DNA from: Bacteroidota bacterium
Lineage (GTDB): Bacteria > Bacteroidota > Bacteroidia > Bacteroidales > UBA12077
Assembly (NCBI GenBank): GCA_020444275.1
Contig: JAHLLG010000004.1
Span: 62,001 to 126,000 of the forward strand
DNA: 64,000 nucleotides
Reading direction: 5' to 3'
The notes under the pieces are model-generated. The model made no database searches and was not told the origin of the DNA. It saw only the letters and a list, made by a program, of their open reading frames with translations. A program made the translations under genes and the position numbers. Below, piece by piece: positions 27,982-47,509 of this stretch (within the stretch, counting starts at the first letter, position 1; every line of letters starts with the position of its first letter).

Positions 27982-28368
27982 TTAAGCACGGATCTTATTT
28001 CTGAAAACAAACCAAATAAAGAACGAGACAAGAAACAGAAAAAAAGCATACAAAGGTGCAATAAAGGAAATTCTTAATCCGCCCATAATAAGTTTAGGAG
28101 AAATGTCTTGCGCCTGTTCTATGGCCGATAAAGCACCATAAAATCCTACGTGTTGGAAGAAAATGGCTAAAAGTAATCCAAATCCACCAATAAATAGGAT
28201 GGTAGAGTTATACTTACTAAGCTTTTTGGAATCCTTGTTTTCTAAACGATAGTTTCTTAAAAACTTAACAACATATAATATTACAAGAATCCACATGATG
28301 TAATGAAGAAGCATAAAAAAAGGTCCTCCTTCAAAAAAATGTTGTTTTAATAATTCTGCTATAGACAT
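27982..28368 (-). CDS. Small MotA/TolQ/ExbB-like membrane protein
   Basis: 128 residues with three predicted membrane helices. FFEGGPFFMLLHYIMWI at the N-terminus and the two C-terminal helices (IGGFGLLLAIFFQHVGFYGAL; PLYAFFLFLVSFFIWFVF) resemble the core of TolQ/ExbB proton-channel proteins, but the usual length is over 200 residues and no ExbD/TolR gene is nearby. A paralogue of almost the same layout is at 47135-47509. It lies downstream of the SPFH gene. Function unknown. Confidence 0.6.
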   Translation of the reverse strand: MSIAELLKQHFFEGGPFFMLLHYIMWILVILYVVKFLRNYRLENKDSKKLSKYNSTILFIGGFGLLLAIFFQHVGFYGALSAIEQAQDISPKLIMGGLRISFIAPLYAFFLFLVSFFIWFVFRNKIRA

Positions 28369-35191: not shown

Positions 35192-36127
35192 TTATACATT
35201 TTCTTTAACAACCCGTTTATAAGCATTAGTTTCGACATAGATTTCGTCTTTTAATGGATTTATATGTTTACGACGTATCAGGTAAAATTGATAAACTGCA
35301 AGAGCGATATTCGAAAGTAGCGCTAACAGACTAACCATAAAAAATGCTTTAGGATTATGTGTTGTAGGTACCGGCGCTATGCGATCTGCAAACTGTGGGA
35401 CAGTCATAACAAACATAATCCACAACGCAAGTGTTGATGCCCGGTGCTGCAACCATGCACCTTTTTTTATAAAGAAGGCTGGTATCGTACAGGCAAGAAG
35501 CAGAGCTACTCCACAATAGAAAGAGTGATCGGCTATGCAGTTATAGGTATAGGCAAAATTCCACAGATCATAAGCGATGATCCAGGCCCATATCATATCT
35601 GGCCATATCATATCTTTTGTTTTATCGTTAGAAATAAATATTCCAACCCAACCACAAATTGTTACAATATTTAGTAAACCGGCAATACCATTCATTATGT
35701 TCCAAGGACCTGACATTACCCAAAGGTTATCAATAACAGCGCCATCCCATGCTCCATATGTATATACTTGAAAGTCGCGTATAACAGCTTCAAATATATT
35801 AATACCTAGTATAAGCGGAGGAAACAATAACACCCATTTCTTTTTGGTTAATCCCGGTATAAAACGGATGGCCATAAAGCCCAACACACCGGCAAGGGCT
35901 GAATAAGTTTTAACCCAGTTAAACCAGGTTCCCGTGCCATATTCATTGCCAGGGGCGGCAGTTTTTGGCCAAACAAATATAGTAAGAACAATAGGTACAA
36001 TTAGAAAGAGTAAAATTCCACCCCATTTCGTGGTGCGGCCAAATTCATTAAACGCAATTAACGCAAAAAGAACGATGGTAAATATTACCCAGCCTGAGGT
36101 ATCAGGCACATTATAAAGTAAACCCAT
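35192..36127 (-). CDS. Polytopic membrane protein, DUF5692-like (copy 1)
   Basis: 311 residues with about nine to ten predicted membrane helices. I assign it from memory to DUF5692, an uncharacterised family. Conserved polar and aromatic segments include IMNGIAGLLNI, WAWIIAYDLWNFAYTYN, DHSFYCGVALLL and KKGAWLQHRA, which may form a substrate or ion site within the membrane. It is closely similar along its length to the next gene upstream. No catalytic motif is recognised. Confidence 0.65.
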   Translation of the reverse strand: MGLLYNVPDTSGWVIFTIVLFALIAFNEFGRTTKWGGILLFLIVPIVLTIFVWPKTAAPGNEYGTGTWFNWVKTYSALAGVLGFMAIRFIPGLTKKKWVLLFPPLILGINIFEAVIRDFQVYTYGAWDGAVIDNLWVMSGPWNIMNGIAGLLNIVTICGWVGIFISNDKTKDMIWPDMIWAWIIAYDLWNFAYTYNCIADHSFYCGVALLLACTIPAFFIKKGAWLQHRASTLALWIMFVMTVPQFADRIAPVPTTHNPKAFFMVSLLALLSNIALAVYQFYLIRRKHINPLKDEIYVETNAYKRVVKENV

Positions 36128-36246: not shown

Positions 36247-37164
36247 TTATTTATTTTCTTCAATAATTGATTGGTAACTTTTTAAGTTCGTATAAATTTC
36301 TTCTTTCAATGGATTACGTTTCAATTTCACAATTTTATACACATGATAAATGATAAGTGCAATGTTTGCTGACAAAGCGATGGCACTAACCATAAATAGG
36401 GCAGTAGTATTCTGTGATGCTTTAACAGCATACTTTGATGTATCGATAAATGCAGGGAATGTCATAGCAAACATAACCCAAACAGCCAAGGTTTGTGCAC
36501 GATGCTGCAACCAGGCTCCTTTTTTGATAAAAAATGCAGGTATGGTACAAGAAAGCAATAAAACCAAGCCAGCATAAAACGCATGATCGCCTAGTGCGTT
36601 ATACACATAAGCAAAATTCCATAAATCATATGCAATAATCCAAAACCAAAGCTGGTCGGGCCATATCATATCTTTTTTCTTGCCTTTACTGATAAAAATA
36701 CCGGCCCATCCAGAAATAGCAAGAATATTTAGAATTCCGGCAATGCCATTCATTATATTCCAGGAGCCTCCGGTAATAACAACGCCATCAACAAAACCGT
36801 TTAGATTGTAGCACTGAAAATCGCGCACAACGGCTTCCAGTATATTGATTGCAAGCAAAAGAGCCGGAAAGGCCAACATGTATTTATTATCGGCCCAACC
36901 TTTAATATATCTTATGCCCATAATACCCAGGGTAATTATTAACACAGAATATACTTTTGCATAATGAAACCATGTTCCAACGCTGGTTTCGGGGCCAGCA
37001 GTATTTGGCCAAACAAAGAATGTGAGATAAATTGGCAACACTAAGAACATTCCTAGTCCTATCCATTTGTTAGCGCGTGCTAACTCATTGGTAAGCATTA
37101 GGCTTGCTAAAACAGCAAAACCCATTAGTATCGTATGTAAAGGTAATGATTCGAATAAAAACAT
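36247..37164 (-). CDS. Polytopic membrane protein, DUF5692-like (copy 2)
   Basis: 305 residues, a paralogue of the 35192-36127 product with the same helix layout and the same conserved segments (IMNGIAGILNI, WIIAYDLWNFAYVYN, DHAFYAGLVLLL, KKGAWLQHRA). It is the promoter-proximal copy and lies directly downstream of a Crp/Fnr regulator gene. A promoter with a 20-bp palindrome precedes it, so its expression is probably activated by that regulator. Function unknown. Confidence 0.65.
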   Translation of the reverse strand: MFLFESLPLHTILMGFAVLASLMLTNELARANKWIGLGMFLVLPIYLTFFVWPNTAGPETSVGTWFHYAKVYSVLIITLGIMGIRYIKGWADNKYMLAFPALLLAINILEAVVRDFQCYNLNGFVDGVVITGGSWNIMNGIAGILNILAISGWAGIFISKGKKKDMIWPDQLWFWIIAYDLWNFAYVYNALGDHAFYAGLVLLLSCTIPAFFIKKGAWLQHRAQTLAVWVMFAMTFPAFIDTSKYAVKASQNTTALFMVSAIALSANIALIIYHVYKIVKLKRNPLKEEIYTNLKSYQSIIEENK

Positions 37165-37281: not shown

Positions 37282-37872
37282 TTAAATGTTACTTTTAAAT
37301 ACTTTTCTTTTCAGTTTACTTAACCATTCCTTACTTACACCCATAAATTGAGCAATGTATTTATCGGGTATTCTCTGCATATAAATCGGATGTTGATTGT
37401 ATAAAAATTGTAGAAAATCTTCAGCATTTAATGAAAGGCGCATGGCGCTGAACATATATAAATTTTGATAACTGCTCGCCGTAATTTTATGAAAAAAAAC
37501 AGAAAATTCCTGGAAATTATTTATCAGATAATCTAATTGTGTTTTTGAAAATTCTATCAACTCGCAATTTTCAATAGCCTTTATCTCAAAATCTGATACC
37601 TGTTCAGAGAAGTATCCGCTTGCTTCCGAAAGAAAGGCGTAAACTTCATCCACATAAAAACCCTGGACGATTTCCTTTCCATACTGATTTAAAAATGTTT
37701 TTACCAGACTTCCACTATTAATAAAGTATCCATATTGACAGATCTGTCCTGCTCTTAGCAAATACTCATTCTTTTTAAGGTGCCTGATTTTTCCGAACTC
37801 CTGAAGTTGTTTCCAAAGTTTTGGACTCAACTCGATATCTTTTTCTAATGCAAGTTTAAACTTTGAAAACAT
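37282..37872 (-). CDS. Crp/Fnr family transcriptional regulator
   Basis: 196 residues. The N-terminal cyclic-nucleotide-binding-like beta-roll (LRAGQICQYGYFINSGSLVK) is followed by the dimer helix and a short winged helix (IPDKYIAQFMGVSKEWLSKLKRK). It lacks the N-terminal cysteine cluster of FNR, so it would not carry an Fe-S cluster in that way, and it lacks the arginine/serine cAMP pocket motif of CRP. The signal is unknown. It is upstream of, and co-directional with, the DUF5692-like genes and probably their activator. Confidence 0.88.
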   Translation of the reverse strand: MFSKFKLALEKDIELSPKLWKQLQEFGKIRHLKKNEYLLRAGQICQYGYFINSGSLVKTFLNQYGKEIVQGFYVDEVYAFLSEASGYFSEQVSDFEIKAIENCELIEFSKTQLDYLINNFQEFSVFFHKITASSYQNLYMFSAMRLSLNAEDFLQFLYNQHPIYMQRIPDKYIAQFMGVSKEWLSKLKRKVFKSNI

Positions 37873-38531: not shown

Positions 38532-38563
38532 TTTGCATTATGAACATATGTTCAATATATTTG
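38532..38563 (+). promoter_or_regulatory. Promoter and operator of the ORP-like cluster
   Basis: TTTG (38532-38535), 20-nt spacer, TATATTTG (38556-38563): an exact Bacteroidota promoter. The spacer contains the perfect 14-bp palindrome TGAACATATGTTCA (38541-38554). The ATG of the DUF134 gene is 19 nt downstream of the -7 box. A protein bound at the palindrome would block or remodel RNA polymerase. Confidence 0.7.
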
Positions 38564-38582: not shown

Positions 38583-39053
38583 ATGCCAAGACCACAAAGT
38601 AACAGAATTGTATATGAGCCACCTGTTTTTACAGATTTTAAGCCTGTTGGAGTAAAAGGCCTTGCATTAGAACAGGTGTTATTAACCATTGATGAATTTG
38701 AAGCCTTTCGATTAGCTGATCATGTTGGTTTATCGCACGAAGAAGCAGCTGAAGAAATGGAAATTTCAAGACCAACTTTTACACGATTGATTGAACAGGC
38801 CAGAAAAAAAATTGCAGATTTTATTATCAATGGCAAAGTGTTAACAATTGATGGTGGCAATATTCATTTTAGAAATAATATTATTAAATGTCAGAGTTGT
38901 GGACAAACGTTCAAAACTAAATTTAGCGAACAAATAACTGAGTGTCCGTCCTGTCATTCAAAAAACATTTTGAATTTGGCGGGAGGTTTTGGACACGGGA
39001 AATGTTGTGGTAACCGAAATAAACATAAAGGAGGTAAATATGCCAGGAGGTGA
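38583..39053 (+). CDS. DUF134 family DNA-binding protein
   Basis: 156 residues. The N-terminal PRPQSNRIVYEPPVFTDFKP is the DUF134 signature, followed by a sigma-region-4-like helix-turn-helix (LSHEEAAEEMEISRPTFTRLIEQARKKI). The C-terminal half has two CxxC pairs (CQSC, CPSC) and a further Cys/His tail (GHGKCCGN), indicating a zinc or Fe-S site. DUF134 genes commonly accompany NifX/MinD-type ATPase clusters in anaerobes. It is the first gene of the cluster and probably its regulator. Confidence 0.85.
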   Translation: MPRPQSNRIVYEPPVFTDFKPVGVKGLALEQVLLTIDEFEAFRLADHVGLSHEEAAEEMEISRPTFTRLIEQARKKIADFIINGKVLTIDGGNIHFRNNIIKCQSCGQTFKTKFSEQITECPSCHSKNILNLAGGFGHGKCCGNRNKHKGGKYARR

Positions 39054-39312
39054 CAGAACAGGGCCTAATGGTCAGGGACCATTGACAGGCCGAAGAATGG
39101 GGTATTGTACAGCGAACCCCGATTTCCCTGCCAATTTCAGAGGATTGGGTATGGGAAGAGGTATGAGAGCAGGTTTTGGAAGAGGATTTCGACATGGATT
39201 TACTCCCGCCGAAACCGAGAACTACTCACAAAAAGCTAATCTTAAAGCAGAGTTAGAGAAATTGAAAGCTCAGATGGAATTTCTGGAAAATGAATTAAAG
39301 AAGCTTGATTAG
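39040..39312 (+). CDS. DUF5320-like glycine/arginine-rich protein
   Basis: 90 residues. The N-terminus MPGGDRTGPNGQGPLTGR(R)MGYC is the hallmark of DUF5320 and related small anaerobe proteins, followed by a Gly/Arg/Phe-rich segment and a C-terminal coiled coil (LKAELEKLKAQMEFLENELKKL). A strong ribosome site (AAGGAGG) precedes the ATG at 39040, which overlaps the end of the DUF134 gene by 14 nt. The function is unknown; the coiled coil suggests assembly with other cluster products. Confidence 0.75.
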   Translation: MPGGDRTGPNGQGPLTGRRMGYCTANPDFPANFRGLGMGRGMRAGFGRGFRHGFTPAETENYSQKANLKAELEKLKAQMEFLENELKKLD

Positions 39313-39408
39313 TGTTTGTAATAAACCATTAGTTGGTTTAATATTTTCGTGATGGTTTGTAAAATCGCTAATGGTTTATTTTTCTTATGAATTTTAAAAA
39401 TATGAGTT

Positions 39409-39606
39409 ATGAATATCGGAAAAGGCTTAGGAAAAGGAGGAGGCCGTGGCAGAAATAAAGGTGGTGGCTTCGGAGTAGGTGGATATTGTATTTGTGCAAA
39501 ATGTGGCGAAAAAGTGCCACATCAGCAAGGTGTTAAATGCACAACAGTTAAATGTCCAGCATGTGGACATACAATGATTAGAGAAGAGTTATTAAATAAA
39601 AAATAA
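39409..39606 (+). CDS. Small glycine-rich zinc-ribbon protein
   Basis: 65 residues: a glycine-rich leader (GKGLGKGGGRGRNKGGG) and a four-cysteine ribbon (CICAKCGEKVPHQQG, then CPACGHTM). It could bind zinc or an Fe-S cluster. It lies between the DUF5320-like gene and the first orange-protein-like gene. Similar small proteins occur in MTH1175/NifX clusters. Confidence 0.65.
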   Translation: MNIGKGLGKGGGRGRNKGGGFGVGGYCICAKCGEKVPHQQGVKCTTVKCPACGHTMIREELLNKK

Positions 39607-39616
39607 AAATAGAAAT

Positions 39617-39955
39617 ATGAAAAAGAAATTTGCGATACCAACTTTAGGCGGTGAATTAACAGCACATTTTGGGCACTGCGAGAAATTTGCAATTGTTGAT
39701 GTTGAAGAAAATAAGGTAATAAACCAAGAATTTGTTACTCCGCCGGTTCATCAGCCTGGAGTATATCCAAAATTTTTGGCTGACCAGGGAGTACATGTTA
39801 TCATAGCAGGTGGAATGGGACAAAAAGCTCAGGATCTTTTTGCAATGAATAATATTGAAGTGCATATGGGAGTGCAAAACGGATCACCTAAGGAGTTAGT
39901 AGAGCACTACTTGAACGATCAGTTAAAAACAGGTCAAAATCTTTGTGATCATTAA
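39617..39955 (+). CDS. MTH1175/NifX-type (orange-protein-like) protein, copy 1
   Basis: 112 residues of the dinitrogenase iron-molybdenum cofactor biosynthesis fold (IPTLGGELTAHFGHCEKF, then VHVIIAGGMGQKAQDLF). The C-terminus ends in LCDH. In nitrogen fixers NifX/NifY carry FeMo-co precursors. In Desulfovibrio the same fold is the orange protein (ORP), which holds a Mo-Cu cluster. No nitrogenase genes are present, so an ORP- or Fe-S-carrier role is favoured. It directly precedes the two ATPases. Confidence 0.85.
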   Translation: MKKKFAIPTLGGELTAHFGHCEKFAIVDVEENKVINQEFVTPPVHQPGVYPKFLADQGVHVIIAGGMGQKAQDLFAMNNIEVHMGVQNGSPKELVEHYLNDQLKTGQNLCDH

Positions 39956-39967
39956 GAACTTAAAAGG

Positions 39968-40834
39968 ATGAAAATTGCCATTGCTAGCGGAAAAGGGGGC
40001 ACAGGAAAAACAACATTATCAACAAATCTTTCAGTTTTGCTTAGCGAAACTGAACGTGTTGTTTTAACAGATCTTGATGTGGAAGAACCCAATTCCGGAT
40101 TATTCATAAAAGGAGATCTGAAATCAGAAGAAATAAAGTATAAAATGATTCCTGAATGGAAAGAAGATACATGTACTTTATGTGGTGAGTGCCAGAAGAA
40201 CTGTAATTTTCATGCTGTAATACAATTGGGTCCTCAGATAATGGTTTTCCCGGAGTTGTGTCATAGTTGTTTTGCTTGTTCAGAGTTGTGTCCAACAAAT
40301 TCTTTACCTATGCAGGCCCAACGAATGGGTACGATCAAAGAGTATCAATATCGGCAGATGGCCTTCGTTGAGAGTTGTTTGGATATTGGACAAGAACAGG
40401 CTGTGCCTTTAATTGGTCAAACAAACGAATATGTAAATCAAAAATTTGATGAAGACTATATCATGATTTTTGATGCACCTCCCGGAACTTCGTGTCCTGT
40501 AATCGAGGCAACCAAAGATGTTGATTACGTAATTTTAGTAACCGAGCCTACTCCTTTTGGCTTACACGATCTTAAGTTGGCTGTTGAAACTATGAAAGAA
40601 CTAAAAAAAGATTATGGTGTTGTGATTAATCGATATGGTTTAGGTAATGATGATGTAATAGATTATTGTAAGGAAGAAAATGTTACCGTTTTAGCTAAAA
40701 TACCCAATAGCAGGAAGGTTGCTGAAATTTACTCTAAAGGAAAGCTTATTTATAATGAGATTCCTGAAATCAAAGAACAGTTCCTGAAATTAAAGGAGTT
40801 CATTTTAACACGTAAAAAGGAGTTTGTTCAATGA
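39968..40834 (+). CDS. MinD/ParA-type P-loop ATPase with inserted ferredoxin domain, 1
   Basis: 288 residues. The deviant Walker A GKGGTGKTTLS is at the N-terminus. A two-cluster ferredoxin insert lies at about residues 60-115 (CTLCGECQKNC and CHSCFACSELCP), and the ATPase continues with DAPPGTSCPVIEA and LVTEPTPFGLHDL. This is the MinD/Mrp-related ATPase pair of the Desulfovibrio ORP complex. A nucleotide-driven Fe-S or metal-cluster loading role is inferred. Its TGA overlaps the ATG of the next gene (ATGA). Confidence 0.92.
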   Translation: MKIAIASGKGGTGKTTLSTNLSVLLSETERVVLTDLDVEEPNSGLFIKGDLKSEEIKYKMIPEWKEDTCTLCGECQKNCNFHAVIQLGPQIMVFPELCHSCFACSELCPTNSLPMQAQRMGTIKEYQYRQMAFVESCLDIGQEQAVPLIGQTNEYVNQKFDEDYIMIFDAPPGTSCPVIEATKDVDYVILVTEPTPFGLHDLKLAVETMKELKKDYGVVINRYGLGNDDVIDYCKEENVTVLAKIPNSRKVAEIYSKGKLIYNEIPEIKEQFLKLKEFILTRKKEFVQ

Positions 40835-41709
40835 AAGAGATTGTAATTATTTCAGGAAAAGGAGGAACAGGAAAAACTTCCTATACAGCTTCTATCTCTG
40901 TTTTAGCAGGAAAGGATGCAATAGTTGCAGATTGCGATGTGGATGCAGCAGATATGCATTTGTTAATGAAACCTGTGGTGGAAAAATCTGAAAATTTTTA
41001 CAGCGGTGTTGTTGCTGAGATCGACCCTGATAAATGTACCAATTGTGGCATTTGTACGGAAAAGTGCAGGTTTAATGCAATTCCGGTTATAAATGATCAA
41101 CATATTATAAGTTCTTTGAATTGTGAAGGTTGCGGATACTGCGAAAAAGTTTGCCCGGTTGAAGCAATTCAAATGAACGAAATGAATGTAGGTGATTGGT
41201 ATATATCAAATACAAAAGTTGACAATACCATGGTACATGCTCGCTTAGGAATTGGAGCTGAAAACTCCGGCAAATTGGTGGCTAAGGTTAAAAATGAAGC
41301 AAAACAATTAGCTGAAGAAACCAACAAACATTACATCATAGTTGATGGTTCTCCGGGAATTGGGTGTCCGGTGGTATCTTCCTTATCAGGAGCAAACTAT
41401 GTTGTTTTGGTTACAGAACCTTCTGTTTCGGGGTTACACGATTTAAAGAGGGTATACGAATTGGTTGATAAGTTTAACCTAAAAGCAGGTTGTATTATCA
41501 ATAAATCGGATATAAATCCGGAAGTTACAAATGAAATTTTGGATTTTTTAAAAAAGGAATCAATAGAGCATATTGTAAGTTTGCCGTATAACGAAAACTT
41601 TACCAAAGCCATGACTAATGGACAAACCATAGTTGAATATGATCAGGGAGAGTTGCGTGATGCGATAGTTCAAAGTTGGGAGAAAGTTAAAGAGCTGGTG
41701 GAAGAATAG
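40831..41709 (+). CDS. MinD/ParA-type P-loop ATPase with inserted ferredoxin domain, 2
   Basis: 292 residues, a paralogue of the previous gene and coupled to it by a 4-nt overlap. Walker A is GKGGTGKTSYT; the insert has CTNCGICTEKC and CEGCGYCEKVCP; the switch region is DGSPGIGCPVVSS. The pair probably forms a heterodimer. Overall layout is as for DVU2103/2104-type proteins of the ORP complex. Confidence 0.92.
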   Translation: MKEIVIISGKGGTGKTSYTASISVLAGKDAIVADCDVDAADMHLLMKPVVEKSENFYSGVVAEIDPDKCTNCGICTEKCRFNAIPVINDQHIISSLNCEGCGYCEKVCPVEAIQMNEMNVGDWYISNTKVDNTMVHARLGIGAENSGKLVAKVKNEAKQLAEETNKHYIIVDGSPGIGCPVVSSLSGANYVVLVTEPSVSGLHDLKRVYELVDKFNLKAGCIINKSDINPEVTNEILDFLKKESIEHIVSLPYNENFTKAMTNGQTIVEYDQGELRDAIVQSWEKVKELVEE

Positions 41710-41743
41710 AATAGAGAGTTGTGAATTAGTAAAAAAGTAAGAT

Positions 41744-41793
41744 GGTTTCTAGTTACTTGTTTCTTGTTAACCTGAAACTTGAAACCTGGAACA
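41744..41793. repeat. Low-complexity imperfect inverted repeat
   Basis: Alternating GTTTCT/CTTGTTTC and CTGAAACTTGAAACC words form a long imperfect hairpin with GGTTTC (41744-41749) and GAAACC (41781-41786) as outer arms. It lies in the 156-nt gap inside the cluster. Similar word patterns recur in Bacteroidota intergenic DNA, so it may be a dispersed repeat. Confidence 0.4.
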
Positions 41794-41865
41794 GTTTAAA
41801 CATAGAATTTTAGTAAAAGATAAGGAAAATACTAAATAGATATTGAAGACTTAAAATTTGAAACA

Positions 41866-42204
41866 ATGAAAATAGCATTTACAGCAAAAGGAACAGATTG
41901 GGATTCGCAGATGGATCCGCGATTTGGAAGAACTGAATATATTCTGGTTTACGATGATGAAAAAGAAACGTTTGAATCATTCGACAACAGAGATATTGAA
42001 AATGAAGCACATGGCGCAGGGCCTAAAACGTCGCAAAAATTATTTGAATTAGGCGCACAGGTTTTAATTACAGGAAATGGCCCGGGCGGAAATGCAGCAA
42101 CTGTATTACAGAAAGCAGGTGTTAAGTCATTCATTGGGGCAGGCGGAATGAACGTGAAAGAAGCTTATAAAGCCTATAAAAATAACGAATTAAAAGAGTT
42201 TTAA
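41866..42204 (+). CDS. MTH1175/NifX-type (orange-protein-like) protein, copy 2
   Basis: 112 residues of the same fold as copy 1 but divergent in sequence (MKIAFTAKGTDWDSQMDPRFGR, then LITGNGPGGNAATVL and GAGGMNVKEAYKAY). It contains no cysteine, so any metal cluster would be held by other side chains, as in Desulfovibrio ORP. It is 5 nt from the flavoprotein gene. Confidence 0.85.
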   Translation: MKIAFTAKGTDWDSQMDPRFGRTEYILVYDDEKETFESFDNRDIENEAHGAGPKTSQKLFELGAQVLITGNGPGGNAATVLQKAGVKSFIGAGGMNVKEAYKAYKNNELKEF

Positions 42205-42208
42205 GATC

Positions 42209-43567
42209 ATGGAAAAATACAATGTAATTATTATAGGAGCAGGACCCGCAGGTATTATTACCGGAGTAACGGCTAAAAAGCAATTCCCTGAGAAATCGAT
42301 GCTAATGTTTAAAGAAGAAGATAAAGGACTAGTTCCTTGTGGAATACCTTATGTTTTTCATAAACTCGGTGGAGTAGATAAAAATATAATGGGGCCTAAA
42401 CCATTTGTGGATTTAGGAGGTGAAGTAATTACTGAAAAAATTGAGCATGTTGATTTTGACAACAAAACAGTAAAGTCATCTTCAGGTAGAGAATTCTCTT
42501 ATGATAAACTGGTTTTTGCTACAGGTTCAAAAGTAGTAGTTCCGAAGTTTATCCCTGGCTACGATCTGAATAATGTTTTTTATATCAAAAAAAGTTTTAA
42601 TTATATTCAACAGGTTTACGAGGAATTAAAAACCAAACAAAACATTGTAGTTGTTGGTGGAGGGTTTATTGGAGCCGAAGTAGCAGAACAGCTTGCTCTG
42701 CATGAGGATAAAAAAGTAACTTTAGTAGAGAGTGAATCATGTTGTTTTTCTAAAGCTTTTTCAAAGGATTTGTGTAAAATAGCAACACAGACCATGAAAG
42801 AAACAGCTATTCGTGTTAGAACGGCAACCAAGGTTGAAAAAATTGAAGGAAAAGACGGAAAGGTAAATTCAGTTTTACTATCAACAGGAGAGGAACTTAA
42901 AGCGGATGCTGTAATTATGGCTATTGGGTATAAACCAAATACTGAACTAGCGCAAAAAGCAGGTTTGGAGGTAAATGAAATGGGAGCTATCATGGTAGAT
43001 AATTACGAACGCACAAAAATAAAAGATGTATGTGCAGTGGGAGACTGCTCTCAAACCATTGGTTTCTTGACCGGACGCACTGACAATATTATGTTAGCTT
43101 CAACTGCAACTGCAGAAGCTCGAGTGCTTGGACATAATTTGTTTGGAATACGAATAAAGAAAAATTTCAATGGAACTCTGGCTGTTTTCTCAACAGAAAT
43201 AAATGGTGTGTCTATGGCATCGGCAGGCGTTAACGATACCAATGCTATTGAAGCCAATATTGAATATGTTTCAGCTACTTTTAGCGATGTGGACACACAT
43301 CCTGGCACTTTTGAAGAAACCAAACCTTTATCGGTTAAACTTTACGCATCTCCATTAGATGGCGCTATTTTAGGTGGTGAAGTTTGGGGAGGAAAATCAG
43401 CGGGTGAAATGATCAATACCATTAGTTTAGCCATTCAGAAAGGTGTAACAGTGTATGAACTGGTTTCATTTCAAATAGGTTCACACCCATTACTTACAAG
43501 TGCTCCAACGAAAACGATTATAATTAAAGCAGCTGAGATGATTATAAATCAGATTGCTAAAAAATAA
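42209..43567 (+). CDS. FAD-dependent oxidoreductase, CoA-disulfide reductase/NADH oxidase-like
   Basis: 452 residues. GAGPAGIITG binds FAD; VVVGGGFIGAEVAEQLA binds NAD(P)H; AVGDCSQT is the second FAD motif; a C-terminal dimerisation domain follows. The active-site cysteine sits in LVPCGIPYVF (near residue 44), as in CoA-disulfide reductase and NADH oxidase/peroxidase enzymes. Within this cluster it could supply electrons to the ferredoxin-ATPases or reduce thiols or persulfides; this is inference. Confidence 0.88.
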   Translation: MEKYNVIIIGAGPAGIITGVTAKKQFPEKSMLMFKEEDKGLVPCGIPYVFHKLGGVDKNIMGPKPFVDLGGEVITEKIEHVDFDNKTVKSSSGREFSYDKLVFATGSKVVVPKFIPGYDLNNVFYIKKSFNYIQQVYEELKTKQNIVVVGGGFIGAEVAEQLALHEDKKVTLVESESCCFSKAFSKDLCKIATQTMKETAIRVRTATKVEKIEGKDGKVNSVLLSTGEELKADAVIMAIGYKPNTELAQKAGLEVNEMGAIMVDNYERTKIKDVCAVGDCSQTIGFLTGRTDNIMLASTATAEARVLGHNLFGIRIKKNFNGTLAVFSTEINGVSMASAGVNDTNAIEANIEYVSATFSDVDTHPGTFEETKPLSVKLYASPLDGAILGGEVWGGKSAGEMINTISLAIQKGVTVYELVSFQIGSHPLLTSAPTKTIIIKAAEMIINQIAKK

Positions 43568-43574
43568 ATTAAAT

Positions 43575-44351
43575 ATGAAGCTTTATGTTTTAACAGAAAA
43601 TACAGCTTCAGGTAAATTCTTTGCAGAACATGGCCTGTCGTACTATATCGAATACGATAGCCATATTTTATTTGATACAGGCCACTCTTCTGTTTTTGCG
43701 CAAAATGCAAAAAAACTGAATCTTAATCTCGATGATATAAAAACTGTGGTTTTAAGTCATGGGCATTGGGACCACGGCAACGGGTTAAAATTTTTAAACG
43801 ATAAAGAGTTAGTATGTCATCCGGATGTTTTTCAAAAAAGATATAGCAAAAACGGAAAAGATAACATTGGTCTGGAGCTATCGTTTAGTGAGCTAAACGA
43901 AAAATTTGATATTACCTATACCAGAATACCTTTTCCCGTTAGCAGTAAGATTATTTTTTTAGGTGAAATTCCTCGAATCAATTCATTCGAAGCTCAAACC
44001 ACGACTTTTGAATTCTCTGATGGGAAAGAGGATTATTTACTCGATGATTCTGGCTTGGTTGTGAAGTTGGAAAATGAAATTATTGTTATTTCAGGCTGCG
44101 CCCATTCCGGAATTTGCAATATAATTGAGTATGCTAAGAAAATGACTGGAATTTCAAAAATCCGCGCTGTAATTGGAGGATTTCATCTAAAACAGAATAA
44201 TAAACAAACACAAGAAACCATAAACTATCTAAAGGCGCAAGATATTCAAGAAATATATCCTTCACACTGTACCGAATTACCTGCTCTTGCTGCTTTTCAT
44301 AGCGAGTTCAATACAAAACAACTAAAAGCGGGAATGGTATTAAGTTTTTAA
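43575..44351 (+). CDS. Metallo-beta-lactamase-fold hydrolase (COG1237 type)
   Basis: 258 residues. SHGHWDHGNG provides the HxHxDH metal site (His62, His64, Asp66, His67). SGCAHSGICNII and IGGFHLKQN are later metal-ligand segments. COG1237 proteins are often annotated as dihydropterin (methanopterin-pathway-like) synthases, but the function is generally unproven. I used the ATG at 43575, which leaves a 7-nt gap after the flavoprotein gene; the frame extends to 43554. Confidence 0.85.
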   Translation: MKLYVLTENTASGKFFAEHGLSYYIEYDSHILFDTGHSSVFAQNAKKLNLNLDDIKTVVLSHGHWDHGNGLKFLNDKELVCHPDVFQKRYSKNGKDNIGLELSFSELNEKFDITYTRIPFPVSSKIIFLGEIPRINSFEAQTTTFEFSDGKEDYLLDDSGLVVKLENEIIVISGCAHSGICNIIEYAKKMTGISKIRAVIGGFHLKQNNKQTQETINYLKAQDIQEIYPSHCTELPALAAFHSEFNTKQLKAGMVLSF

Positions 44352-44354
44352 TAT

Positions 44355-45200
44355 ATGAAAACCTATTTACAATGTATACCCTGTTTTATGCAACAGGCTT
44401 ACCGAACAGCTAAGTTAGCTACAAATGATCAGCATAAAATAAAAACTGTTCTCGATTCGGTTGGGGATATGATTAAGACAGTTTCGATGGAAAATACACC
44501 CCCTGCAACCGGGAATCTTATTTACCACAAAATAAGAGAAGTAACAAAAAACGATGATCCTTATAAGGAAATAAAACGCAAAAACATAAATGAAGCCCTG
44601 CATTTATATCCTGATTTGAAAGAAACAGTTAGAAACTCTGATGATCCTTTATTAACCGCTATCCGTATAGCTATTGCCGGTAATGTAATTGATCTTGGAG
44701 TAAATAAAAAGTTTAATATTAAAGATGATATTCAAACCATTTTAAAACAGGAATTTGCTGTTTTTGATTATGAAGCTTTTAAAGATCAACTGAATAAAGC
44801 AAAAACGATTTTATACATTGGCGATAATGCCGGAGAGAGTGTTTTCGATCGTATTTTAATAGAGCAAATGAATAGACCTGCAACCTATGTTGTACGAGAA
44901 ATTCCAGTTATAAACGATTGTATTATTGACGATGCTGTAGCGTCAGGTTTACAAGAGGTAGCCGAAATCATTTCATCAGGAAGCACGGCTCCTGCAACAA
45001 TTCTGAGTTTATGTAACAAGGAATTTCTGGACCGATTTAAAAATGCTGATTTGGTTATTAGCAAAGGACAGGGAAATTACGAAGGATTATCTGAAGTAAA
45101 CCGGTCTGTATTCTTTATGCTTAAAGCAAAGTGCAAAGTGATTGCAAACGACTTGGAAGTGCAAGAAAATGATATTGTACTTAAAGGAATAAACGTTTAA
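44355..45200 (+). CDS. DUF89 (ARMT1-like) metal-dependent phosphatase family protein
   Basis: 281 residues. The N-terminal CIPC (Cys7, Cys10) is typical of the archaeal/bacterial AF1104-type branch. The core has GDNAGESVFDRI, REIPVINDCIIDDA and SKGQGNYEGL, the metal and phosphate site. Family members are metal-dependent phosphatases proposed to act on damaged phosphometabolites. It lies 3 nt from the metallo-hydrolase gene. Confidence 0.88.
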   Translation: MKTYLQCIPCFMQQAYRTAKLATNDQHKIKTVLDSVGDMIKTVSMENTPPATGNLIYHKIREVTKNDDPYKEIKRKNINEALHLYPDLKETVRNSDDPLLTAIRIAIAGNVIDLGVNKKFNIKDDIQTILKQEFAVFDYEAFKDQLNKAKTILYIGDNAGESVFDRILIEQMNRPATYVVREIPVINDCIIDDAVASGLQEVAEIISSGSTAPATILSLCNKEFLDRFKNADLVISKGQGNYEGLSEVNRSVFFMLKAKCKVIANDLEVQENDIVLKGINV

Positions 45201-45218
45201 TACTAAAATTCATAATCT

Positions 45219-45980
45219 ATGAAAGGCAAAATCAACTTTATTATTGATGTGATCATGTTTGTACTAATGGCATTGCTTGCAGGTATTGGCCTATTAATTA
45301 AATATATACTGCTTTCAGGAGAAAATCGCTGGATAAAATATGGTCGTAATGTTGATTTGAATTTTTGGGGATTAGACCGTCATGAATGGGGAACCATCCA
45401 TTTATGGGTTGCAATTGCTTTGGTTGTAATGCTTATTTTGCATATCATTCTTCACTGGAATATGATTATTTGTCTGTATAAGAAGTTAATAGGAAATAAA
45501 ACAGGTAGAGTTATTTGTGGAAGCGCTCTATCCGTAATTACATTATTATTTGTTGTTTTTCCTTTTTTTATTAAAGTTGATATGGCTGAAATTGCTCCCG
45601 GACGAGAACGATTTGGATCAATTGACAAACATGAAAAACAAAGATTTATTGAAAATGATTCTCATCATGCAATTTCTGATAATAATGTAAAGATGTCTGA
45701 GCAAACAAATATTCAAAGTACAATAAAAGAAAAACAAGAAAATGTTAAAGAAGAACATAACGATGAACATCAAGAAATAGATCCGGCAATTGAAGTAAAA
45801 GGATATAATACATTAAATGAAGTAAGCCAGTTGTATAATATACCAGTTATTGTGATTACAGAAAAACTTAACATTCCGGAATCAACCTCGGGTTCATTAA
45901 AGTTAGGCCATTTAAGAAAGCAGTATGGTTTTACTATGAGCGACATAGAATTGATAATACACAATTATAAAAACCAATAG
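45219..45980 (+). CDS. DUF4405 membrane protein
   Basis: 253 residues with three membrane helices. Histidines on helix faces (HEWGTIHLW, LHIILHW) are typical of DUF4405, a cytochrome-b-like family found in membrane electron-transfer modules. A charged linker with many His/Glu residues (HNDEHQEIDP) connects to a C-terminal ~60-residue domain (NEVSQLYNIP, KLNIPESTSG, LRKQYGFTMSDIE) of the type fused to NapH/RnfB-like ferredoxins. A heme-mediated link between quinones and the cluster enzymes is inferred. Confidence 0.75.
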   Translation: MKGKINFIIDVIMFVLMALLAGIGLLIKYILLSGENRWIKYGRNVDLNFWGLDRHEWGTIHLWVAIALVVMLILHIILHWNMIICLYKKLIGNKTGRVICGSALSVITLLFVVFPFFIKVDMAEIAPGRERFGSIDKHEKQRFIENDSHHAISDNNVKMSEQTNIQSTIKEKQENVKEEHNDEHQEIDPAIEVKGYNTLNEVSQLYNIPVIVITEKLNIPESTSGSLKLGHLRKQYGFTMSDIELIIHNYKNQ

Positions 45981-45982
45981 CC

Positions 45983-46432
45983 ATGAAGAAAACAACAAAG
46001 ATTGGAATTATTATCTGCGATCGCTATCGAGATTGCGCTGGCGGGAAATGTTTCAGAGCCATGAAAAACCGTGATGGTGCATTCAGTATTTACGATAAGG
46101 ATGAACACCTGGAAATTGTGGGTTATACAACGTGCCGTGGATGTCCGGGTGGAAATATTGAGTATGTGCCCGAAGAAATGGTGAAAAATGGAGTAGATGT
46201 TATTCACTTAGCAACAGGATTTGTGGTTGGATATCCACCTTGTCCTTATATTGATCATTTCAGGCGTTTTATTCAGAAAAAATACGATACCAAAGTAGTG
46301 GTTGGAACACATCCAATTCCTGAAAAATATTATAAAACCCATTCATCGTTGGGAACCTGGGATTCAAATGAGTGGAAAGAAATTATCGAACCAACATTAG
46401 CAACAGAAGAAGTGCGAATAGAATACAATTAA
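45983..46432 (+). CDS. CGGC domain protein
   Basis: 149 residues. Cysteine motifs CDRYRDCAGGKCFRA and CRGCPGGN are the CGGC-domain pattern, and GYPPCPYIDHF and VGTHPIP follow. The domain is predicted to bind metal; its function is unknown. It is common near ORP-like and corrinoid genes in anaerobes. It is 4 nt from the adenosyltransferase gene. Confidence 0.8.
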   Translation: MKKTTKIGIIICDRYRDCAGGKCFRAMKNRDGAFSIYDKDEHLEIVGYTTCRGCPGGNIEYVPEEMVKNGVDVIHLATGFVVGYPPCPYIDHFRRFIQKKYDTKVVVGTHPIPEKYYKTHSSLGTWDSNEWKEIIEPTLATEEVRIEYN

Positions 46433-46436
46433 TTCG

Positions 46437-46955
46437 ATGAGCAAAGGTTATATTCAAGTGTATACCGGAAATGGTAAAGGAAAAACGACGGCTGCCCTGG
46501 GACTTGCAATTAGAGCCATTGGAGCAGGCAAAAAGGCTTTTATTGGTCAGTTTGTTAAGGGAATGCATTATAGCGAGTTAGATGCGATAAAAACTCATTT
46601 AAACAATATCGAAATCAAACAATATGGCTTGGATTGTTTTATTGTAAACAAACCTGAAGAAAAAGATATCATTGCAGCAAAAAAAGGTTTGGATGAAATG
46701 AAAAACATTATTTTATCCGGAAAATTCGATGTAATTATTATGGATGAGTTAAATATAGCGTTGTATTATAAATTATTTGATGTTAAAGAAGTGTTGGATA
46801 TTTTGAAGAGAAAACCTGCTCATGTTGAAATTGTAATTACCGGAAGATATGCCCCAGAGCCAATAATTGATATTGCTGATCTGGTTACAGAAATGAAAGA
46901 GATTAAACACTATTATCAGCAAGGAGTTCAAGCACGGAAAGGTATCGAATTATAG
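46437..46955 (+). CDS. Cob(I)yrinic acid a,c-diamide adenosyltransferase (CobO/BtuR)
   Basis: 172 residues. YTGNGKGKTTAALGLAIRA holds the P-loop of the CobA/CobO/BtuR family, and IIMDELNIALYY is the second conserved block. The enzyme moves the adenosyl group of ATP onto the cobalt of corrinoids. No other cobalamin genes are in the window, so this gene may be a stand-alone salvage enzyme or may serve another role in the cluster. It is the last gene of the operon. Confidence 0.9.
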   Translation: MSKGYIQVYTGNGKGKTTAALGLAIRAIGAGKKAFIGQFVKGMHYSELDAIKTHLNNIEIKQYGLDCFIVNKPEEKDIIAAKKGLDEMKNIILSGKFDVIIMDELNIALYYKLFDVKEVLDILKRKPAHVEIVITGRYAPEPIIDIADLVTEMKEIKHYYQQGVQARKGIEL

Positions 46956-46978: not shown

Positions 46979-47117
46979 AGCTGTCCGGTAAAATTTATCA
47001 TTTCAGTACGTAAGCATAGTGGATTGTTTTTTGTGAAATTATTTTTAAAGATTCGCTTATTCACATTCATACTCTCCATACAAAATACCTAATGATTACT
47101 TAATCCTTTGGACAGCT
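46979..47117 (-). repeat. Widely spaced inverted repeat with minus-strand poly-U tail
   Basis: AGCTGTCC (46979-46986) and GGACAGCT (47110-47117) form 8-bp arms 123 nt apart in the gap between two convergent genes. On the minus strand the second arm is followed by eight T residues. It may be a small RNA or 3-prime UTR, or a short transposon-like remnant. Confidence 0.35.
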
Positions 47118-47134: not shown

Positions 47135-47509
47135 TTACTTTTTATTCGCAAGCAGGTTTTTAAATATAAACCAAATAACGGCCGAACTAAGAAGTAATCC
47201 AAATCCATACAAAGCAGTTATCATAGATACTTTTAATCCACCGGCAATTAAAGCTGGAGCAACACCACCGGCAGCTTCAATAGCTGATAAAGCCATAAAA
47301 ATGCCTATGGTCTGACCAAAAATACCTATTAGAAAAGTTAAACTACCGAAAAACAAAATAGCATCGTTTGTTCTTTTTAGTTTTATACTTTGGTTGTCGT
47401 TAAAATAGAGGATAAGAAACCGAATGGTTAAAACGATTACTGCAATCCACATCATATAAATCACAGACATAAATAAAGGTCCGCCTTCGATGAAATGTTT
47501 AAAGATCAT
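47135..47509 (-). CDS. Small MotA/TolQ/ExbB-like membrane protein, paralogue
   Basis: 124 residues with three membrane helices. FIEGGPLFMSVIYMMWI parallels the N-terminus of the 27982 product (FEGGPFFM..Y.MWI), and GGLKVSMITALYGFGLLL matches its C-terminal part. Like that protein it is much shorter than TolQ/ExbB and has no ExbD/TolR partner. It is divergent from a LytS-type sensor kinase gene. Confidence 0.6.
   Translation of the reverse strand: MIFKHFIEGGPLFMSVIYMMWIAVIVLTIRFLILYFNDNQSIKLKRTNDAILFFGSLTFLIGIFGQTIGIFMALSAIEAAGGVAPALIAGGLKVSMITALYGFGLLLSSAVIWFIFKNLLANKK

Follow-up and report, generated by a model that had tools for sequence, protein, structure and literature searches.

A putative ORP-type metal-sulfur cluster operon with a modular extension and a predicted operator in a member of the Bacteroidales

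Within a 64,000-nucleotide stretch of a Bacteroidota genome of the order Bacteroidales (contig JAHLLG010000004.1; the whole stretch is referred to as the window), positions 38583-46955 hold an operon-like run of 13 open reading frames (ORFs) on the forward strand. The first seven correspond to an orange protein (ORP)-type core, while the last six form an extension, encoding a flavoprotein (FAD), a metallo-beta-lactamase (MBL)-fold metallo-hydrolase, a DUF89 protein, a DUF4405 membrane protein, a CGGC protein and a CobO-like adenosyltransferase. It seems moderately probable that the run encodes an ORP-type system for the assembly or transfer of a metal-sulfur cluster, combined with a sulfur-redox and metal-handling module and probably under the control of one operator-bearing promoter. 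Comparison supports the homology of the core to the ORP complex, the co-inheritance of several of the extra genes with this core, and the sharing of the operator sequence by a few unlinked ones, so that the locus appears to be real, a modular variant of a known complex, and probably co-regulated. The role of the ORP complex itself is unsettled, as both cell division and iron-sulfur carriage have been proposed.

Using simple ORF calls in scripts (with the families of neighbouring genes at other loci named by Pfam on one representative each), Pfam families above cut-off were found for 12 of the 13 ORFs, the exception being the 65-residue CxxC-type protein starting at 39409. The families named are DUF134, DUF5320, Nitro_FeMo-Co (PF02579, twice) and, in both ATPases, CbiA with Fer4, followed in the extension by Pyr_redox_2, Lactamase_B, ARMT1-like (DUF89), DUF4405, CGGC and CobA_CobO_BtuR. 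The intergenic gaps range from -14 to 18 nt, apart from 96 nt upstream of the CxxC-type protein and 156 nt between the second ATPase (ATPb) and the orange-protein-like protein (MTHb). A preliminary description of this DNA had named these genes, all of which are present where it placed them; it counted twelve co-directional genes, of which the common direction stands and the number does not, and its 'zinc ribbon' at 39409-39606 has a conserved Cys pattern but no Pfam match above cut-off. It also noted that nitrogenase genes were missing, which is correct for the cluster itself (nifHDK was not searched for genome-wide). A terminator-like hairpin is present at 47105, but such hairpins are no commoner in the region than in shuffled sequences (4 versus 5.3).

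The likeness of the core to the ORP complex, as previously proposed, is borne out by structural matches, domain matches and a gene-by-gene alignment. MTHb, which like the other PF02579 protein (MTHa) has 112 residues, matches the Desulfovibrio orange protein structure 2WFB with an E-value of 1.6e-12 (MTH1175 was also matched). MTHa is 43% identical to residues 291-400 of the annotated MrpORP of Peptoclostridium acidaminophilum, and the ATPases ATPa and ATPb are 34% and 40% identical to their respective partners in this organism, in which a run of DUF134, NifX, two ATPases and MrpORP (NZ_CP007453) mirrors the core (34-43% identity for the four compared proteins). In Peptoclostridium, however, MrpORP is fused, and CGGC, CobO and DUF4405 are absent from the annotation of the two stretches seen; a second locus, at positions 350922-359746 of the Peptoclostridium plasmid (L248), combines radical SAM, SDR, DUF134, MBL, Fur and DUF89 genes with Mrp and peroxiredoxin genes on the opposite strand, such that ORP partner families occur together there in the absence of the two ferredoxin ATPases.

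Compared with the ORP complex of D. vulgaris (operons DVU2105-2103 and DVU2107-2109), the shared components are two ferredoxin-bearing MinD ATPases (cf. Orp3/Orp4), an orange-protein-like protein (cf. Orp8) and a protein like the C-terminal domain of MrpORP, a correspondence at the level of composition, since the D. vulgaris sequences themselves were not in the comparison. The D. vulgaris complex contains MrpORP (Orp9), an Mrp ATPase fused to a Di-Nase domain, whereas here the ATPase domain is missing from the operon. Because MTHa covers only the C-terminal domain, the second domain of MrpORP stands alone in the operon, and this iron-sulfur carrier thus appears to be split, with only its Di-Nase part retained in the run; separate Mrp-type ATPases recur at related loci of the order (one representative checked). 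D. vulgaris further has Orp5, a small [2Fe-2S] protein, for which the small CxxC-type protein of the present locus is at most a candidate counterpart. It also has a sigma-54 promoter with a cognate activator, where the present cluster holds no such gene and instead has DUF134, a palindrome and a Bacteroidota-type promoter, a difference in regulation and not in composition. The present run is also longer by the six additional genes.

In the proposed mechanism, ATPa and ATPb would load or move a metal-sulfide cluster on MTHb and MTHa, using ATP and their ferredoxin inserts, and the conserved Cys and His residues of the latter two could hold the cluster. The motifs HFGHC, PPxHxPG and a C-terminal N-x-C-x-H of MTHa are kept across 45 alignment rows and are plausible cluster ligands. 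According to the available part of PMC6345978, a cluster was reported on the corresponding domain of MrpORP, which transfers Fe-S to Orp3, Orp4 and Orp8. Any Mo-Cu or other cluster bound to MTHa or MTHb is hypothetical.

Whether the extension belongs to the core can be judged from the order, where ATPb is present in 89 of 247 genomes. Of the 80 core loci fetched (from 78 genomes), 21 have DUF89 within 10 kb on either strand, 16 have CGGC, 15 FAD, 12 CobO, 12 MBL and 5 DUF4405; nine loci hold three or more extras, the gene order of which is shuffled between loci. In whole-genome searches, CGGC was found in 35 of 79 core-positive genomes versus 4 of 80 core-negative ones (Fisher test, 3e-9), DUF89 in 39 versus 6 (2e-9) and CobO in 31 (one further weak match left out) versus 6 (2e-6). 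The core-positive set comprised 79 of the 89 genomes, the control 80 of the 158 core-negative genomes (G198 and the ones lowest in handle number, not drawn at random), and the statistics ignore kinship, most genomes being from different families. Among carriers other than the window's own genome, the gene lies no more than 10 kb from ATPb in 12 of 30 cases for CobO, 17 of 34 for CGGC and 24 of 38 for DUF89, compared to a chance expectation below 0.25 for each (random copies in 3.7 Mb). Linkage is undercounted, as contig ends cut some loci; one contig counted as unlinked (C109 of G027), with DUF134-MTHb-DUF5320-MTHa-DUF89 and a partial ATPase, is probably the other half of a core. Extras also occur together on core-free contigs (DUF89-CobO-CGGC in G052, DUF89-CGGC in G098, G099 and G104), the distance of which to the core is not readable because these assemblies are fragmented. 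A chance cluster was considered and rejected in view of co-occurrence and linkage. The downstream genes are thus not unlinked from the core in relatives, which the preliminary description had named as the finding that would speak against it, and the conservation of the last six genes with the core, which it had proposed to check, holds as linkage (all six recur near cores, and DUF89, CGGC and CobO also co-occur with it) but not as one fixed unit: the extension is real but modular.

Neither of the two other searched genomes of the genus (G097 and G198) has the core, CGGC, DUF89 or CobO, consistent with the block having been gained or lost as one. Further recurrent neighbours in the order are a radical SAM protein, a Cys/Met lyase, a TrmO-like protein, a third PF02579 protein, a peroxiredoxin, a Fer4_8 protein and DUF1847. 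A relative, Prolixibacter denitrificans, has some genes of this kind of cluster in L183, a stretch that does not show the ATPases. A function in cell division or at the cell pole, which was the first proposal for the Desulfovibrio ORP complex and which draws on the description of Orp proteins as putative division factors and on the polar position of MrpORP (available parts of PMC6345978 and PMC3897727), is very improbable for this locus, as its partner genes are of a redox or metal type and none of the 17 scanned neighbour proteins is a cell-division protein.

A further line of evidence is the predicted operator. Upstream of DUF134, the sequence TTTG-N5-TGAACATATGTTCA-A-TATATTTG combines a match to what we take to be the Bacteroidota promoter consensus with a perfect 14-base palindrome in the promoter spacer. 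Within the window neither element exceeds chance (two exact promoter matches versus 4.3 expected, and two palindrome sites with at most one mismatch versus 2.6), and single-strand folding of the promoter gave no signal (z -0.05). In the order as a whole, TGAAC-N4-GTTCA (at least 9 of 10 positions) precedes DUF134 in 40 of 59 regions, the window included, compared to 0.42 expected from dinucleotide shuffles, and a variant, TGAGA-N4-TCTCA, does so in 11 of 59 (0.32 expected), such that 51 of 59 regions have one type or the other; the pattern TGA-N8-TCA-N1-TAnnTTTG is found in 38 of 59 versus 0.02 expected. A strict composite scan (TTTG-N5-TGAAC-N4-GTTCA in 80 genomes, i.e. the 79 core-positive ones and G097) gave 17 sites in 16 genomes versus three for the reversed pattern, with 12 of the 17 preceding a core and 16 preceding a core or partner genes. 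The only strict match in the window's genome is the DUF134 promoter. Of the five strict sites that do not precede a core, four are found in front of FAD in L289 and MTHa in L299, both unlinked, in front of a radical SAM gene in L302, and in front of a second DUF134-MTHb-DUF5320 set that shares a contig with the core (L292); the fifth is located inside an unrelated gene (L304). The 447 kb fetched for the extras hold 10 distinct perfect TGAAC-N4-GTTCA sites, 8 of which are followed by a core or partner gene at no more than 220 nt (including one before a CGGC gene and several before DUF5320 genes), while for the other two (L327 and L339) no ORF is listed. Some 9-of-10 sites are located before another FAD gene, an MBL gene and a cupin-like gene, but most of them precede nothing. 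In G102, one stretch (L346:8221-9838) has two perfect operators, one before DUF5320 and a CxxC gene and the other before FAD; DUF134 was not found in the 19.5 kb examined there, and a gene resembling MoeA by eye is divergent from the genes of the first copy.

Since the operator overlaps the promoter core, the protein predicted to bind there is most likely a repressor, with DUF134 as the leading candidate. A single change on the DUF134 tree separates the two operator types (support 100/99; 44 rows with TGAAC, 11 with TGAGA and 9 typeless), which fits DUF134 as the binding protein, but, being a single event, would be explained equally by linked inheritance. A Crp/Fnr-like protein with a cyclic-nucleotide (cNMP)-binding domain, encoded at 37282-37872 on the reverse strand and 0.7 kb from the operator, is a possible rival to DUF134 in this respect.

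A number of observations weigh against a cluster-assembly operon with a dedicated module. The evidence comes from sequence comparison, and no metal site was seen; within 10 kb and on the strand of the core, 39 of the 80 core loci have none of the six extras, and a common anaerobic lifestyle may be the source of part of the co-occurrence. In ATPase-free stretches, sites with at least 9 of 10 positions precede CGGC in 1 of 16 cases, CobO in 1 of 13, DUF89 in 0 of 21, FAD in 2 of 4 and MBL in 1 of 3, next to 5 of 275 other genes, some of which are partner genes such as radical SAM (this count dropped CGGC L306, L307, L320, L323 and L325 and DUF89 L342, which fall below the score cuts, and counted duplicates, at three loci, once). 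G102 and G145 have the TGAGA type before the core DUF134 but TGAAC sites before FAD or MTHa genes elsewhere, a pattern not accounted for by a single DUF134 regulator; DUF134 as the sole operator-binding protein was therefore set aside, the tree split being one event and these two genomes contradicting the simple form. In the class of Dethiosulfatibacter aminovorans (presumably Clostridia), where ATPb is found in 47 of 196 genomes, CGGC, CobO and DUF4405 are near none of the 40 core loci fetched (from 39 genomes), and FAD is at two, with 254 and 307 bits, far under the scores of the subfamily. Likewise, among the best 80 of at least 564 confirmed FAD relatives, which an alignment-based scan found in many bacterial and archaeal phyla, 63 have at most one core family within 8 kb, a figure that includes truncated loci, as 8 kb of sequence is available on both sides for only 27 of the 80.

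The same class has MBL at 9 of the 40 core loci (one at the 100-bit cut) and DUF89 at 4, from which it follows that these two are the more widely shared partners, while CGGC, CobO and DUF4405 look like lineage additions; CGGC is also beside a core or FAD on single contigs of WOR-3, KSB1 and Saganbacteria. The remaining 17 of the best 80 FAD relatives have two or more core families at a distance of up to 8 kb, and 11 of these 17 have another extra as well. A fixed FAD partner was looked for and rejected, as these 80 loci gave three unassigned families at four or more loci (radical SAM 11, methyltransferase 7 and J-domain-like protein 5); of the first two, 6 of 11 and 4 of 7 fall among the 17 core-linked loci. 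The idea of a plasmid-borne unit was likewise rejected, since among 72,556 plasmids the ATPase has three records, CGGC none and DUF89 nine. Three of the latter were examined, of which the two from cyanobacteria have no ORP genes in the stretch and the one from Clostridium has ORP partner families.

The shuffled, modular gene orders, the many core loci without extras and the absence of the core from both other genomes of the genus could also reflect a loose clustering of strict-anaerobe genes from shared habitats, without a single function. This is improbable, however, given the tight spacing of the genes in the window, the grouping of extras on core-free contigs (DUF89-CobO-CGGC in the fragmented assembly of G052 being one example), and the operator that is common to unlinked FAD, radical SAM and MTHa genes.

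With respect to the individual extension proteins, FAD would, in the favoured mechanism, use its single redox Cys and NAD(P)H to reduce polysulfide or persulfide to sulfide. This residue (C44, in the motif PCGIPY) is invariant in 13 of 13 rows of the alignment, and the best matches in the Protein Data Bank (PDB) are NoxA-3 and CoA disulfide reductase. The flavoprotein had earlier been called CoA-disulfide-reductase-like, and the likeness stands, but with 226 versus 458 and 217 versus 579 bits it misses the cut-offs of the curated models and is therefore only like that family: it has the fold and the single conserved Cys of the N-terminal region in common with CoA-disulfide reductases, NADH oxidases and polysulfide reductases, yet forms a subfamily of its own. 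The CGGC protein, in which six Cys do not vary among 17 rows of the order, would be a Cys-rich metal or redox partner; its AlphaFold2 model (pLDDT 93) matched nothing in the PDB with an E-value below 0.001, and the fold therefore gave no function. The DUF4405 protein has three to four hydrophobic segments and a soluble C-terminal part according to its hydropathy, and H61, H75 and H79 are invariant in 6 rows. It could carry haem b, which we take to be a possible role of these histidines, and could link the system to the membrane, such that the term 'membrane-linked' in the preliminary description depends on a single gene. MBL and DUF89 would act as supporting metal-dependent hydrolases.

A distinct, if unlikely, alternative is iron/sulfide homeostasis, in which the MTH1175-like proteins store or buffer Fe-S and the flavoprotein and the other extras handle excess sulfur, with no cofactor being made for specific targets. 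According to the available part of PMC5524996, IssA, which has the PF02579 domain in common with MTHa and MTHb, stores thioferrate. Moreover, the neighbours of the core in the Dethiosulfatibacter class include families represented by Fur (8 of 40 loci), ArsR (5), an ArsP-type permease (4) and FeoB (3), of which the Fur and FeoB counts would agree with such a role. Expression data point in the same direction. In the part of PMC5701242 seen, a D. desulfuricans run annotated as dinitrogenase/CbiA/4Fe-4S/dinitrogenase (Ddes_1864-1867) is 12- to 40-fold lower on nitrate than on sulfate, together with repression of FeoA and FeoB; judged from names and order alone this run may be an ORP-like cluster, and it seems to be what the paper refers to as the repressed 'nitrogen-fixation' gene cluster. 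In three Thermococcales, SipA and Nsr rise on sulfur, as do Mrp/NBP35 proteins in two of them, the third being not determined (PMC6981617, available part). Both data sets indirectly support a link of ORP-type genes to sulfur and iron. Against homeostasis, MTHa and MTHb lack the long cationic Gly-rich tail of IssA and are linked to ATPases, and the presence of two ATPases and a stand-alone carrier domain suggests energy-driven transfer.

CobO scores 183.6 bits against a cut-off of 167.75 for NCBIfam cobA and has a P-loop, which it shares, along with the overall sequence (E 1e-28), with the corrinoid adenosyltransferase CobA/CobO/BtuR (1g5r, 4hut). Salmonella CobA has GFTW, of which Phe91 and Trp93 are presumably the two aromatic residues responsible for displacing the lower corrinoid ligand, whereas the core-linked CobO has G-x2-CFI, its stretch GLDCFI aligning to GFTW (by sequence only, with no structure in the comparison). 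QYG or QFG-x2-CFI is found in all 13 core-linked CobO proteins, and CFI in 9 of 14 unlinked ones from core-positive genomes (not in G052, G180, G007, G042 and the second copy of G029). A single supported clade (37 rows, 98/87) holds the core-linked proteins, together with some proteins of other phyla and of core-negative genomes. A PduO-type enzyme (PF01923) is present in 28 of the 31 core-positive CobO carriers, including the window's genome, and was not found in G095, G153 and G180 (completeness 79, 94 and 84%), where CobO may therefore be the ordinary enzyme. The core-linked CobO would be a second adenosyltransferase, possibly with a changed substrate.

These features would also suit a cofactor pathway that includes the CobO-like enzyme and in which a corrinoid or an adenosylated metal cofactor is made or repaired: CobO co-occurs with the core, mostly alongside a PduO-type enzyme, the CFI motif is constant in the core-linked proteins, and Peptoclostridium has cobalamin genes near its ORP run. 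Such a pathway is nevertheless decidedly improbable, because CobO is absent from 48 of 79 core genomes and from the vicinity of all 40 cores in the Dethiosulfatibacter class, because CobO may be the ordinary enzyme in the three genomes mentioned, and because two named genomes (L220 and L224), the ORP linkage of which lies outside the comparison, likewise have a CobO of the CFI type.

Known routes of cluster assembly are ISC, SUF and NIF. A bolder and rather doubtful extrapolation is that TGAAC-N4-GTTCA marks a dedicated regulon of anaerobes, distinct from these routes, which makes and delivers a metal-sulfide cofactor from sulfane sulfur by means of the ORP core, a polysulfide- or persulfide-reducing flavoprotein, radical SAM, CGGC and a CobO that has been repurposed away from ordinary B12 activation, with DUF134 as a repressor that senses the cluster or metal via its C-terminal cysteines. 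More generally, the partner genes and the operator-bearing genes point to sulfur and metal chemistry. The operator sequence is among the most useful new facts, beside the co-inheritance of CGGC, DUF89 and the second CobO with the ORP core, since recurrent partners, a conserved operator and a short gene list make ORP function testable in a cultured anaerobe. They also provide leads for families of unknown function (DUF134, DUF5320, CGGC and the MBL and DUF89 members), and the second, altered CobO is a candidate for a new reaction. As a described unit, the extension was not found in the open-licence literature among the matches listed. In the parts available, PMC3949148 and PMC10084766 mention the ORP complex nowhere but in a reference and PMC4641369 in a table row and a reference, while the seen part of a paper on Bacteroidetes iron stimulons names DUF134 once, with no ORP link found. 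The features of the locus are given in Table 1.

Table 1. Position and basis of assignment of the features of the ORP-type locus in the window
Feature	Position	Strand	Basis
Bacteroidota-type promoter TTTG-N20-TATATTTG	38532..38563	+	Place and conservation in relatives
Predicted operator, perfect palindrome TGAACATATGTTCA in promoter spacer	38541..38554	.	Conservation in relatives
DUF134, candidate regulator	38583..39053	+	Pfam PF02001, E 1e-23; sigma-region-4-like helix-turn-helix and C-terminal Cys motifs
DUF5320, small Gly-rich protein	39040..39312	+	Pfam PF17253, E 8e-22
Small CxxC-type protein	39409..39606	+	Cys pattern conserved in 27 rows
MTHa	39617..39955	+	NF041136 positions 264-365, E 7e-37
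ATPa, MinD-type ATPase with ferredoxin insert	39968..40834	+	CbiA, ParA, Fer4
ATPb, MinD-type ATPase with ferredoxin insert	40831..41709	+	Fer4, CbiA
MTHb, orange-protein-like	41866..42204	+	PF02579; PDB 1rdu, 2wfb (ORP), 1eo1
FAD, pyridine-nucleotide-disulfide-oxidoreductase-like flavoprotein	42209..43567	+	Pyr_redox_2, E 2e-55
MBL-fold metallo-hydrolase, 2p4z/TM1679 kind	43575..44351	+	Lactamase_B; PDB match
DUF89 / ARMT1-like phosphatase	44355..45200	+	PF01937, E 4e-71; PDB 2g8l, E 1e-46
DUF4405 membrane protein	45219..45980	+	PF14358; hydropathy; alignment
CGGC protein	45983..46432	+	PF08821, E 8e-30
CobO/BtuR-like adenosyltransferase, QYG-x2-CFI motif	46437..46955	+	PF02572, E 4e-65

Elsewhere in the window, two DUF5692 proteins, of a family of unknown function, are encoded in tandem on the reverse strand (35192-36127 and 36247-37164, E below 1e-130). 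Two short, similar membrane proteins are encoded on the same strand at 47135-47509 and 27985-28368, the first of which matches MotA/TolQ/ExbB and the second of which is alike by eye.

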